Shown piece by piece: positions 22,748 through 26,912 of a stretch of DNA of 45,997 bases. The notes below the pieces were generated by a model. The model did not search any database. It was not told the origin of the DNA and saw nothing but the letters and a program-made list of their open reading frames with translations. The position numbers were made by a program, and so were the translations under genes. Position 1 is the stretch's first letter, and every line of letters begins with the position of its first letter. The stretch lies in contig JAPSJS010000026.1 of assembly GCA_031178065.1 (NCBI GenBank), forward strand, positions 1-45,997. The letters run 5' to 3'. The stretch comes from Altererythrobacter sp. (GTDB taxonomy: Bacteria; Pseudomonadota; Alphaproteobacteria; Sphingomonadales; Sphingomonadaceae).

Positions 22748-23506
22748 ATGACAGACCAGCTGACCCGCCTTCTCCGCATCATGGCCACTCTTCGCGACCC
22801 GGAGCGCGGTTGCGAATGGGATCGCGCGCAACGCTTCGAGACCATCGTGCCGCACACGATCGAAGAAGCCTACGAAGTCGCCGATGCCGTCTCGCGCGGC
22901 GACGTTGCCGACATTCGCGATGAACTCGGCGATTTGCTGTTCCAGGTCGTGTTCCAGGCCCGCATTGCCGAGGAAGCCGGCCATTTCGATTTCGACGACG
23001 TCGCGCGATCCATCGCCGACAAGCTCGAGGCCCGCCATCCGCACATCTTCGGTGACGCCGACATGCCGGGCGGCATGCGCGAGGAACGCTGGGAGGCACT
23101 CAAGGCGCAGGAACGGGCTGCCAAAGGCGCAGAAAGTGCTCTCGACGGTGTTGCGGCCGCGCTTCCGGCGCTCATGCGCGCCGAGAAGCTCCAGAAGCGG
23201 GCTGCACGTGCCGGGTTCGACTGGCCCGATCCGGAAGGGCCCCGAGCCAAAGTCGTCGAGGAGATGGCGGAACTCGCCGACGCCGCCCCTGACGACCGAG
23301 CCGCCGAAGCGGGCGACTTGCTGTTCGCGGCAGTCAATCTCGTGCGCGCGTACGGTATCCCGGCGGAGGAAGCCTTGCGCAGCGCCAACAACAAGTTCGA
23401 GCGCCGCTTCCGCGCAATGGAAGCCTTGGCGGACGGCGCGTTCCCCGACCTCTCGCTCGAAGAGCAGGAAGCGCTCTGGCAGGAGGTCAAGCGAACGGAG
23501 CGTTAG
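22748..23506 (+). CDS. mazG: Nucleoside triphosphate pyrophosphohydrolase MazG
   Basis: A 252-residue cytoplasmic enzyme that hydrolyses NTPs and dNTPs to monophosphates and pyrophosphate, a house-cleaning role. Two all-alpha MazG domains are present. The first has the metal motif EEAYE (IEEAYEVADAV) and DELGDLLFQVVFQARIAEE; the second, degenerate one has VEEMAELADA and EAGDLLFAAVNLVRAY. WDRAQRFETIVPHTIEEA is a family signature near residue 25. The stop codon shares TTAG with the stop of the convergent hflX gene. Confidence 0.95.
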   Translation: MTDQLTRLLRIMATLRDPERGCEWDRAQRFETIVPHTIEEAYEVADAVSRGDVADIRDELGDLLFQVVFQARIAEEAGHFDFDDVARSIADKLEARHPHIFGDADMPGGMREERWEALKAQERAAKGAESALDGVAAALPALMRAEKLQKRAARAGFDWPDPEGPRAKVVEEMAELADAAPDDRAAEAGDLLFAAVNLVRAYGIPAEEALRSANNKFERRFRAMEALADGAFPDLSLEEQEALWQEVKRTER

Positions 23507-24795
23507 CGCAGGCTGGCAAAGCGTCCGAATTCCTTCGGCGTCAGACGCACCTGGAGTCGATGAACCGGACCGCCTTCGCCGTCCTCCGCCCGATCGCCAA
23601 GCACTTGCCCGTGCGCGTGAAGCCAAGCGATCTTCTGCCCCTCGCCCGCCGGCAGTACGATCTCGTGCACTTTGGCACCGGCGGTCAGCAAGGCGTCGAG
23701 CCGAGCGAGCAGCGCTTCAACGCCCTCGCCAGTTTCAGCAGAGATCGGGACGATATTCTGCTCACTCTCCGCGACCCCAAGCAGTTCCTCGAGCGGCTCC
23801 TGTGGCAACAGGTCGATCTTGTTCCATGCTTCGACGATAGGGATGGCGCTCTCGCCCCCCTCCCCTTCGACGATGCCGAGCTCGGCGAGCACCTGAAGGA
23901 CCTGCGTCTTCTGGGCGCCGGCCGAAGCGTTCGCCATGTCGCGCACGTGAACGATCACGTCGGCGCCAGTGACTTCCTCCAGCGTGGCGCGGAATGCAGC
24001 TACGAGCTGGGTCGGTAGATCGGAAATGAAGCCGACCGTATCGGACAGGATCGCCTTCTCCACACCCGGCAGACGAATCGCACGCATGGTCGGATCGAGG
24101 GTGGCGAAGAGAAGATCTTCCGCCATCACAGCTTCACCTGTCAAATGATTGAAAAGCGTTGATTTCCCAGCGTTCGTGTAACCCACCAGCGCGATCACCG
24201 GCCAAGGCGCCCTGCCCCGCCTCTCACGGTGCAGCGTGCGCGTCTTACGCACTTGCTCGAGCTCCTTGCGGAGCCGCCCCATGCGCTGGCGGATCATTCG
24301 CCGGTCTGCCTCGATCTGCGTTTCGCCGGGTCCGCCGAGGAAGCCGAAGCCGCCGCGCTGACGCTCGAGGTGGGTCCAGGATCGCACCAGACGGCTCTGC
24401 TGATAGTCTAGATGCGCGAGTTCGACCTGCAGGCGCCCTTCGGCGGTCGCGGCACGTTCACCGAAGATCTCGAGGATCAGGCCGGTCCGGTCGATCACCT
24501 TGCGCTTCAGCGTCTCTTCCAGATTGCGCTGCTGGATCGGCGACAGTGCCCCATCGACGACGACCAATTCGGCCTCGTTCTGTTCGCAGGCAATCGCAAT
24601 GTTCTCGACCTGACCTGCGCCGAAGAGGGTGCCCGGCCGCACCTGGCGCACGGGCAGAACGAAGGCGTCGGCGACCACGATCCCGATGGCGAGCGCGAGC
24701 CCGCTTGCTTCGGCGAGGCGTGCCTCGGCATTCAGATCATGGTGCTGTCCGCGGATCTCGGGGCACACGACGAGGGCCCGCGCACCGCGGGACAC
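23503..24795 (-). CDS. hflX: GTPase HflX
   Basis: A ribosome-associated GTPase of at least 430 residues that splits stalled ribosomes under stress. It shows the HflX N-terminal domain (RPGTLFGAGQVENIA), the glycine-rich linker GFGFLGGPGETQIEADRR, and the G domain: G1 GYTNAGKST, G3 DTVGFI, G4 NKID. GTG at 24795 is the first conventional start, but it has no ribosome site. In the same frame a CTG at 24825, overlapping the hfq stop as CTGA and preceded by GCGAGGA, would add ten residues ([10 protein letters not shown]) that look like natural HflX N-terminal sequence. The true start may be that CTG. It follows hfq directly, the usual alphaproteobacterial order. Confidence 0.94.
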   Translation of the reverse strand: MSRGARALVVCPEIRGQHHDLNAEARLAEASGLALAIGIVVADAFVLPVRQVRPGTLFGAGQVENIAIACEQNEAELVVVDGALSPIQQRNLEETLKRKVIDRTGLILEIFGERAATAEGRLQVELAHLDYQQSRLVRSWTHLERQRGGFGFLGGPGETQIEADRRMIRQRMGRLRKELEQVRKTRTLHRERRGRAPWPVIALVGYTNAGKSTLFNHLTGEAVMAEDLLFATLDPTMRAIRLPGVEKAILSDTVGFISDLPTQLVAAFRATLEEVTGADVIVHVRDMANASAGAQKTQVLQVLAELGIVEGEGGESAIPIVEAWNKIDLLPQEPLEELLGVAESEQNIVPISAETGEGVEALLARLDALLTAGAKVHEIVLPAGEGQKIAWLHAHGQVLGDRAEDGEGGPVHRLQVRLTPKEFGRFASLR

Positions 24796-24821: not shown

Positions 24822-25382
24822 TCAGTCGTCCTCGCCTTCGAAGTCGTCATCGTCGCTCAGATCGACCGGCGTTGCGGGCTGGATCGTCGAGATCGCGTGC
24901 TTGTAGGCGAGCTGCACGTAACCCTCGCGCTCCAACAGCATGCAGAACAGGTCGTAAGCCGCGATCGCGCCTTGCAGCATGACGCCGTTGACGAGGAACA
25001 TCGTCACCTGCGCTTCCGCATCACGCACGCGCGACAGGAAGACGTCCTGCAGGAGGCGCTGCTTCTTGCTCGAATCCTGACTTGCGAACTGCGACGCGTC
25101 CATCGGCTGCGCGGGCATGATCGTCGAGATCGCATGCTTGTAGACGAGCTGCGACTGACCGTCGCGGCGCAGCAGGATCGAGAAGTTGTCGAACCAGGTG
25201 ACGATACCCTGCAGCTTGACGCCCTTCACCAGGAACATGGTCACCGGCGTCTTGTTCTTGCGCAGGATATTGAGGAACGCGTCCTGCAGATTCGCCTGGC
25301 GCGTCTGCTGCTTCGACTCGTCGGCCGGCTTGGGCTCAGGTTTGGGCTTGGGACGCGCGGAAAGCGTCTGTCCGGTAGGCAT
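24822..25382 (-). CDS. hfq: Hfq with two tandem Sm domains
   Basis: A 186-residue RNA chaperone, about twice the usual length, made of two Hfq domains (about 29-93 and 108-172) joined by a linker. By eye 36 of 62 aligned positions are identical. Both keep the Sm2 motif YKHAIST (81-87, 160-166), the LQD entry (32-34, 111-113) and the proximal phenylalanine (F67, F146). The rim patch, RRER in E. coli, is RKNK in domain 1 (41-44) but RDAE in domain 2 (120-123); distal-face K31 is K56 in domain 1 and M135 in domain 2. A Pro/Lys-rich head (10-19) and a very acidic tail ([10 protein letters not shown]) flank them. M38 of the longer frame is taken as the start, with GAAGGA just upstream. Confidence 0.95.
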
Positions 25383-25526: not shown

Positions 25527-26912
25527 TCAGACCTTCCGGTCCGGTGCGTGCCGCTCGCCCATGCCGAGCAGCTTCAGCTTGCGGTGCAGTGCCGAGCGTT
25601 CCATCCCGATGAAGCTCGCGGTCTTGGAGATATTGCCCGAGAAGCGCCGGATCTGAATGCTCAGATACTCGCGTTCAAACGTCTCGCGCGCCTCGCGCAG
25701 GGGGACGCCCATCAGCGTGGAAAGCCCGTTCGCGCCGCCCAGCTTGCCGCCGGTAACCTCACTCGGCAGCATCTCGGCCTCGATCACTTCGAGGTCCTCG
25801 CGTGGGGAGAGAATCACCGTCCGCTCGACCACGTTCCTCAACTGGCGGACATTGCCGGGCCAGTCGTAGGCCTGCAGCGCGGCCATGGCCTCCTCCGAGA
25901 TATCGGGCGCGGGAACACCCTGCTCGGCAGCATAGCGCGCGAAGAAATGCTGGGCGAGCGCCGGGACGTCGTCGCGGCGCTCGGCAAGCGAGGGAATCGC
26001 GACAGGCACGACGTTGAGACGGTAAAACAGATCTTCCCGGAAGCGCTTGTCCTCCATCTCCTCGGTCAGATCACGCGAGGTCGAGGAGACGACCCGCACG
26101 TCGACGCCGATCTGCCGATTCCCGCCGACACGGACGAAGGATTGTTCGGTCAGCACGCGCAGGATGCGTGCCTGGGTCGAGAGGGGCATGTCCGCCACTT
26201 CGTCGAGATAGAGCGTGCCGCCATCGGCTAGTTCGAGAAGACCGGGCCGGACGAGCTGACCGTCGGCTTCCTCGCCGAACAGCTCCTGCTCGAACCTCTC
26301 CGGCGTGATCCGCGCAGAATTGACGATGACGAAGGCGGAATCGGCGCGTCCGCTCCAGCTATGCAGCAGGCGCGCAGCAACTTCCTTGCCCGCCCCGGCC
26401 GGCCCGCTGATGAGCACGCGGCTACCGGTGTTGGCGACCCGCTTCAGCGTCGCACGAACCTGGTTGATGGCCGGGGAATTGCCGGTGAACTCCTCGCCAT
26501 GCGAGAAACCCTGCCGCAGACGAGTATTTTCCCGCCGCAGCCGTTCGGTCTCGGTCGCGCGGCCGACGAGATGGAGCAGGCGTTCGGCCTCGAACGGTTT
26601 CTCGATGAAATCCATCGCCCCGCGGCCGACGGCCGACACCGCGGTGTCGATATTGCCGTGACCGGAGAAGATGATCACTGGCAGCTCGGGCTCGCGCTTC
26701 TTGATCTCGTCGAGCACCTCGAGCCCGTCCATCGCGCTGCCGTGCAGCCATACGTCGAGCAGCACCAGGCTCGGGCGACGCTCATCGATCGCGGCCAGCG
26801 CTCCGTTGCTGTCACCTGCCGTGCGGCATTCGTAGCCCTCGTCGCACAGGACGCCGGAGACGAGCTCGCGAATATCGCGTTCATCGTCGACGACGAGGAT
26901 GTCTAGGGCCAT
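25527..26912 (-). CDS. ntrX: Response regulator NtrX
   Basis: A 461-residue response regulator paired with NtrY. The receiver domain has D53 as phospho-acceptor (LVLLDVWL), with acidic D9/D10 and K104-region KPF. The AAA+ domain (about 140-375) has Walker A as GPAGAGKEVAA and Walker B as GGTLYLDEVADMP. The sigma-54 contact motif GAFTGA is absent (LFGEEADGQL takes its place), as is usual for NtrX, so it does not act as a classical sigma-54 activator. The Fis-type HTH lies at the end (NISKTASFIGMERSALHRKL). AAGGAG precedes the ATG. In relatives NtrYX responds to nitrogen, redox or envelope state. Confidence 0.95.
   Translation of the reverse strand: MALDILVVDDERDIRELVSGVLCDEGYECRTAGDSNGALAAIDERRPSLVLLDVWLHGSAMDGLEVLDEIKKREPELPVIIFSGHGNIDTAVSAVGRGAMDFIEKPFEAERLLHLVGRATETERLRRENTRLRQGFSHGEEFTGNSPAINQVRATLKRVANTGSRVLISGPAGAGKEVAARLLHSWSGRADSAFVIVNSARITPERFEQELFGEEADGQLVRPGLLELADGGTLYLDEVADMPLSTQARILRVLTEQSFVRVGGNRQIGVDVRVVSSTSRDLTEEMEDKRFREDLFYRLNVVPVAIPSLAERRDDVPALAQHFFARYAAEQGVPAPDISEEAMAALQAYDWPGNVRQLRNVVERTVILSPREDLEVIEAEMLPSEVTGGKLGGANGLSTLMGVPLREARETFEREYLSIQIRRFSGNISKTASFIGMERSALHRKLKLLGMGERHAPDRKV

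Follow-up and report, generated by a model that had tools for sequence, protein, structure and literature searches.

Eukaryotic Sm and Lsm proteins form heteroheptamers, that is, rings built of non-identical Sm domains carried by seven separate chains. The tandem Hfq described here has non-identical Sm domains in common with them, but it holds two domains per chain and its ring would be hexamer-like. Within the bacteria, the closest described protein is the Hfq of Zymomonas mobilis (ZMO0347), which has two Sm-like domains, as do proteins of six other Sphingomonadales species, and for which it was posed as a question for testing whether just three Hfq proteins build the hexameric ring (Yang et al., 2010; PMC2877685); both the tandem duplication and the idea of a three-chain stoichiometry were thus already in print. 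The portion of that paper available to us does not describe half-specific residues, and the likeness of ZMO0347 to our protein is drawn from this description. As to the oligomeric state in Zymomonas, the available portions of two further papers contain no mention of a hexamer or trimer in the former (PMC9797736) and none in the latter (PMC7546472). The NCBIfam model NF010691 (PRK14091, a tandem "RNA chaperone Hfq") states no half-specific roles. The nearest solved chain, by sequence and by fold, is the Hfq of Caulobacter crescentus (6gwk), which likewise shows an acidic tip on a basic rim, but has one Sm domain per chain and, according to the parts of the report available, six equal chains and six equal rims (PMC6561178). 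A phmmer search against the PDB sequences retrieved 35 distinct Hfq sequences, each with one matched stretch, and no tandem structure. The tandem architecture is therefore known; the open-access literature that we searched, which leaves out most subscription papers and supplements, contained no account of a difference between the halves, and this asymmetry is apparently undescribed there.

The window, a stretch of 45,997 nucleotides of an Altererythrobacter sp. genome (contig JAPSJS010000026.1), encodes an Hfq in which Pfam detected the domain in two stretches (PF17209, 188.1 bits; whole-protein E-value of 1.7e-56). The protein matched NF010691, the model for two domains in one chain, with 303.7 bits (cut-off of 270) and TIGR02383 with 177.4 bits (cut-off of 61.7), and it matched Hfq chains in Foldseek. 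These matches bear out the tandem architecture proposed in a preliminary description of this DNA, and our alignment of the two 63-residue domains gave 36 identities in 63 positions, close to the 36 of 62 previously counted. The residues singled out there, RKNK versus RDAE at the rim, K56 versus M135 at the distal face and YKHAIST in both halves, were all present; K53, N66 versus L145, R72 versus E151 and M89 versus Q168, at positions 28, 41, 47 and 63, respectively, had been missed. Throughout, "position" refers to the E. coli numbering. The proximal uridine-site residues Q8, F42, K56 and H57 (positions) occurred in both halves. A search of the genome returned this single Hfq match, and the closest named relatives were Pelagerythrobacter species (96% in the best segment). 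The coordinates of all features are collected in Table 1.

Table 1. Features of the tandem hfq gene and its neighbours, in window coordinates; residues are numbered along the protein.
Feature	Coordinates	Strand	Basis
hfq gene, tandem form, 186 aa + stop	24822..25382	-	ORF translation, Pfam, NCBIfam
N-terminal extension, residues 1-31, proline- and lysine-rich	25290..25382	-	sequence
Hfq (Sm) domain 1, residues 32-94	25101..25289	-	Pfam, half-to-half alignment, AF2
Domain 1 basic rim RKNK, residues 41-44 (E. coli 16-19)	25251..25262	-	sequence, conservation
Domain 1 distal pair K53 + K56 (E. coli 28, 31)	25215..25226	-	202/202 tandem loci outside g13
Linker, residues 95-109, at the place of the acidic tail of single-domain Hfq	25056..25100	-	sequence comparison
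Hfq (Sm) domain 2, residues 110-172	24867..25055	-	Pfam, half-to-half alignment, AF2
Domain 2 neutralised rim RDAE, residues 120-123 (E. coli 16-19)	25014..25025	-	sequence, conservation
Domain 2 distal residues N132 + M135 (E. coli 28, 31)	24978..24989	-	202/202 tandem loci outside g13
E151 of domain 2 (E. coli 47); R in domain 1 (R72) and in 66/66 single-domain loci	24930..24932	-	conservation counts
Acidic C-terminal tail, residues 173-186	24825..24866	-	sequence comparison
hflX, downstream neighbour of hfq, source of the trees	23503..24795	-	TIGR03156; conserved neighbour
ntrX, upstream neighbour of hfq	25527..26912	-	NF051870

Within the flanks analyzed, ntrX lay beside hfq in 169/171 tandem loci of family f1, in 11/11 single-domain loci of that family and in 26/26 loci of its divergent genus g13, and in just 1 of the 23 loci from the order's remaining families and 4 of the 24 from other orders. 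A gene for a MazG-type nucleoside triphosphate pyrophosphohydrolase (22748-23506) lies on the opposite strand and shares four bases with the end of hflX. An Rfam scan of the window yielded one tRNA and nothing bearing on hfq; neither the scan for promoters and terminators nor the search of a viral structure library with the protein was informative.

Within the order sample, all 297 genomes had an Hfq match, and the 204 that exceeded the tandem cut-off all belonged to f1, while none of the 48 from the remaining families (counted by eye) reached it. The one-domain model, applied to 397 f1 genomes, matched twice in 354, once in 42 and not at all in one (counted by eye), the last being 97% complete and 9% contaminated. 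Single-domain genomes made up 13 of the 89 f1 genera sampled, no genus mixed genomes with one and two matches, and all of the 76 tandem genera found in the family were sampled. Only 6/387 genomes of the class sample and 19/397 of the phylum sample exceeded the tandem cut-off, and every tandem-range score came from f1; no tandem Hfq was found outside this family in either sample, in which tandems as diverged as some of those in g13, a genus that scores under the NF010691 cut-off, would not stand out. The duplication had been thought probably a trait of the Sphingomonadales: it is indeed lineage-specific, but it was found only in f1 and is not order-wide, and even there 13 of the genera sampled are single-domain. 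One genome of family f2 (locus L194, G001) had, besides a complete Hfq match, a partial one covering positions 1-39 in a frame of 51 aa. The contig entitled "Actinobacteria bacterium 21-64-8" (L099) carried a tandem Hfq 70% identical to that of the window; this title is probably wrong for the contig.

HflX trees of 93, 113 and 131 rows, the last built after removal of the long-branch rows L151 and L172, needed one change of the tandem state and placed the single-domain f1 genera outside a tandem clade with SH-aLRT values of 92, 89 and 94, although these were quick searches run without bootstrap and had many weak forks. We rejected the idea that those genera had lost one half, given their position outside the clade and the single change. 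The results point to a single fusion that took place once the earliest f1 lineages had branched off. Change counts on the tree do not by themselves separate gain from loss of the tandem state; gain is favoured because the single-domain f1 proteins retain an ancestral-looking N28.

Conservation in the two halves was counted over 202 tandem loci outside g13 (some of them identical) and 66 single-domain loci. Domain 1 had K at positions 28 and 31, where domain 2 had N and M, respectively, each in 202/202 loci. Further half-specific residues were found at position 63 (M in 199/202 versus Q in 202/202), position 41 (N in 202/202 versus L in 196/202), position 38 (W in 202/202 versus A in 184/202) and position 47 (R in 202/202 versus E in 170/202 and R in 14/202). 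Single-domain loci had N28, K31, N41, W38 and R47, each in 66/66. Conversely, Q8, F25, G29, Q33, Q52, Y55, K56, H57 and T61 were invariant in both halves (202/202), and F42 was found in 202/202 loci in domain 1 and 200/202 in domain 2. The earlier view that both halves keep the proximal site thus holds for Q8, Y55, K56 and H57, and nearly so for F42, but not for position 41, where domain 2 mostly has L.

The difference between K28/K31 and N28/M31 is universal among the tandem genera outside g13. Judged from this pattern, the founding asymmetry is distal, domain 1 having gained K28 and domain 2 lost K31; since these residues and the Q63 of domain 2 are each fixed in all 202 loci, selection is more plausible than drift. 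The halves had been proposed to diverge in opposite directions, which fits the distal face, where the difference is two-sided, better than it fits the rim. In genus g13, K28 was kept in 26/26 genomes and M31 in only 69%. Both halves were fast-evolving in all 26 genomes (L125, L126, L128-L132, L134-L141 and L205-L215; mean pairwise identities of 0.65 and 0.563); domain 1 had lost N41 and in part also W38 or H57, and in some sequences helix 1 of domain 2 showed a gap of two residues. The Hfq of this genus is possibly changed or failing.

The rim behaved differently from the distal face. In a first sample, the charge at positions 16, 17 and 19 was +3 in 50/50 unique single-domain and in 146/146 unique domain-1 sequences, and in domain 2 it was zero or less in 113/146 and +3 in one; this sample was skewed, since the nearest relatives of the window supplied 80 of its 171 underlying tandem loci. 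We therefore counted per genus, over 75 genera, leaving out g13 because both of its halves are strongly diverged. The domain-1 rim was at +3 in 75/75 genera, while the mean for domain 2 was 2.5 or more in 10, from 1 to below 2.5 in 15, and between 0 and 1 in one; in the other 49 it did not exceed zero. On the 131-row tree, the tandem clade divides in two: the window's subclade (46 rows, support of 82), where no domain-2 rim reached +2, and its sister subclade (support of 83), where 18 of 29 rows outside g13 did (counted by eye). As a two-state character, the domain-2 rim changed 12 times on this tree.

Loss of the domain-2 rim is thus recurrent and lineage-specific, the rim being lost in the subclade of the window and often retained in its sister. 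We rejected the rim difference as a general hallmark of the tandem form once every tandem genus had been sampled, as 10 of the 75 keep +3 in domain 2. Not all tandem members had a domain-2 rim less basic than that of domain 1, although the 46 rows of the window's subclade did. The claim that only domain 1 keeps a basic rim consequently stands for this subclade and falls for tandem proteins generally; equal conservation of the rim in both halves of close relatives, which would have spoken against that claim, did not appear in those rows. In the first sample, domain 2 had R14 in 57% and R or K at position 35 in 61% of sequences, the window having R14 but A35. Basic charge has thus in part been relocated; as such gains are frequent in the window's subclade, the function of this rim may have been moved rather than lost. 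Emphasis should be placed on the distal face, whose difference is universal outside g13, and not on the rim, which is a local trait.

The two domain envelopes were separated by 18-22 residues in 146/146 unique loci. Most single-domain relatives carry an acidic tail at their end, and the last ten residues of tandem proteins were at -3 or lower in 72/75 genera. In Caulobacter Hfq, rim residues R18 and K19 (positions 16 and 17) are in direct contact with the acidic tip of the protomer next to them, but K21 (position 19) is not; E75 bonds R49 (position 47) in the neighbour, and annealing is described as tracking the count of arginines in the rim (available parts of PMC6561178). The acidic tail, earlier suggested to add to the neutralised rim of domain 2, is hence nothing special to tandem proteins and is best regarded as the usual tip of an Hfq. 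As stated in the accessible portion of PMC5606850, tailless E. coli Hfq aggregates DNA. The linker, in turn, probably derives from the tail that copy 1 once had.

If the linker is that old tail and domain 2 its neighbour in the ring, linker acidity and the domain-2 rim are expected to be lost together, and we tested this expectation. Across the 75 genera, the number of linker acids rose with the charge of domain 2 at positions 16, 17, 19 and 47 (Spearman 0.577). Independent contrasts on the HflX tree gave r = 0.416 between linker acidity and the domain-2 rim (74 contrasts, p = 2e-4), compared with 0.094 between this rim and the C-terminal tail, 0.021 between domain-1 charge and the linker, and 0.061 between domain-1 charge and the domain-2 rim. 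Independent-pairs tests had just 2, 2 and 1 supported pairs. Position 72, the counterpart of Caulobacter E75, was acidic in 45/46 single-domain rows; in the linker it was acidic in 8/14 genera with R47 in domain 2 and in 8/61 without it (Fisher p = 0.001, with kinship ignored).

A mere balance of charge over the protein, with no docking, might also produce this relation. The rest of domain 2 does compensate, the contrasts of its charge with the rim and with linker acidity giving -0.283 and -0.284, respectively, and we regard charge balance as a possible but somewhat doubtful sole cause: neither the C-terminal tail nor the charge of domain 1 tracks the rim, and the partial correlation of rim and linker given the rest of domain 2 was still about 0.36 (calculated by hand from the contrast values). 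The joint loss agrees with an autoinhibition of rims by the tips of adjacent domains in a three-chain ring with alternating halves, although general charge balance may also play a part. Placement of the domains as neighbours also bears on another arrangement, namely two homogeneous rings stacked on each other and built by six chains, which contribute domain 1 to the first ring and domain 2 to the second. Stacked Hfq rings occur in crystals (in the portion of PMC5379935 available), and the linker is not of a length that forbids them; they are nevertheless improbable here, as a tether of this length favours neighbours, the co-loss of linker acids and domain-2 rim is more easily explained by neighbours, and AlphaFold2 predicts a defined placement of the domains. 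With an alignment of 83 sequences, that model had a mean pLDDT of 89.0 and a pTM of 0.78, with two complete Sm folds and a short linker helix (residues 96-99). Since one Hfq chain covers it only with a TM of 0.32-0.36 among the 50 Foldseek matches listed, this pTM shows that the mutual placement is predicted with some confidence.

Domain 2 might, on the other hand, be structural filler, half of the distal and rim sites sufficing after the fusion, so that its sites decayed under relaxed constraint while the ring and the uridine pore were kept and no new function arose. The halves are, in fact, unequally conserved, as had been proposed, and domain 2 is the less conserved of them (mean within-group identity of 0.786 versus 0.889 for domain 1; identity to single-domain Hfq of 0.593 versus 0.784), its rim residues varying widely. 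Relaxed sites would, however, be expected to vary, yet M31, N28 and Q63 of domain 2 are as invariant as K28, which the other half has gained, and decay is an unlikely explanation. We lean, if only slightly, towards the alternating ring as the most likely form of the fused Hfq: three chains would assemble into one six-domain ring in which domains 1 (A) and 2 (B) take turns. As the distal purine site lies between neighbouring subunits, with Tyr25 of one and residues 26, 30 and 32 of the next (available parts of PMC6422490; also PMC5379935), such a ring would have two kinds of purine site, and its distal footprint would repeat every six nucleotides rather than three. Annealing of sRNA and mRNA would fall mainly to the three A rims; in E. 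coli, R16A nearly abolished sRNA-target chimeras and K31A reduced them almost four-fold, with regulation lost only partly (accessible portion of the preprint PMC12262471). The acidic tail, present on B alone, may dock on the neighbouring A rim as an autoinhibitor. Where the linker, probably the old tail, is still acidic, B tends to keep its basic rim, and where this acidity was lost the B rim went too, rims and acidic tips thus staying matched. Read from the sequences, all six proximal pockets keep their core residues, two classes of distal subunit exist outside g13, and in the window's subclade only the A rim is fully basic.

Taken further, and tentatively, one fusion in an ancestor of most Sphingomonadaceae may have converted a homohexamer into a ring of three-fold symmetry that holds two types of Sm subunit. 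Its alternating distal sites would read mRNA in six-nucleotide steps, and each basic rim would have its own acidic gate, the linker having served the second rim until gate and rim were lost jointly in the subclade of the window. Such a ring would parallel the Sm heteromers, with the number of active rims per ring varying among relatives. In an ordinary Hfq, a point mutation strikes all six subunits, so that the number of rims or distal sites needed is hard to probe; in a tandem Hfq, each site class can be altered separately within the native ring, and the relatives offer, as far as their sequences tell, rings with six basic rims (e.g., genera g524-g527) or three (the window's subclade). One ring of this protein probably carries two kinds of working site and not six equal ones and, if this is true, the required count of annealing patches and the action of acidic tips on their neighbours would become directly testable.
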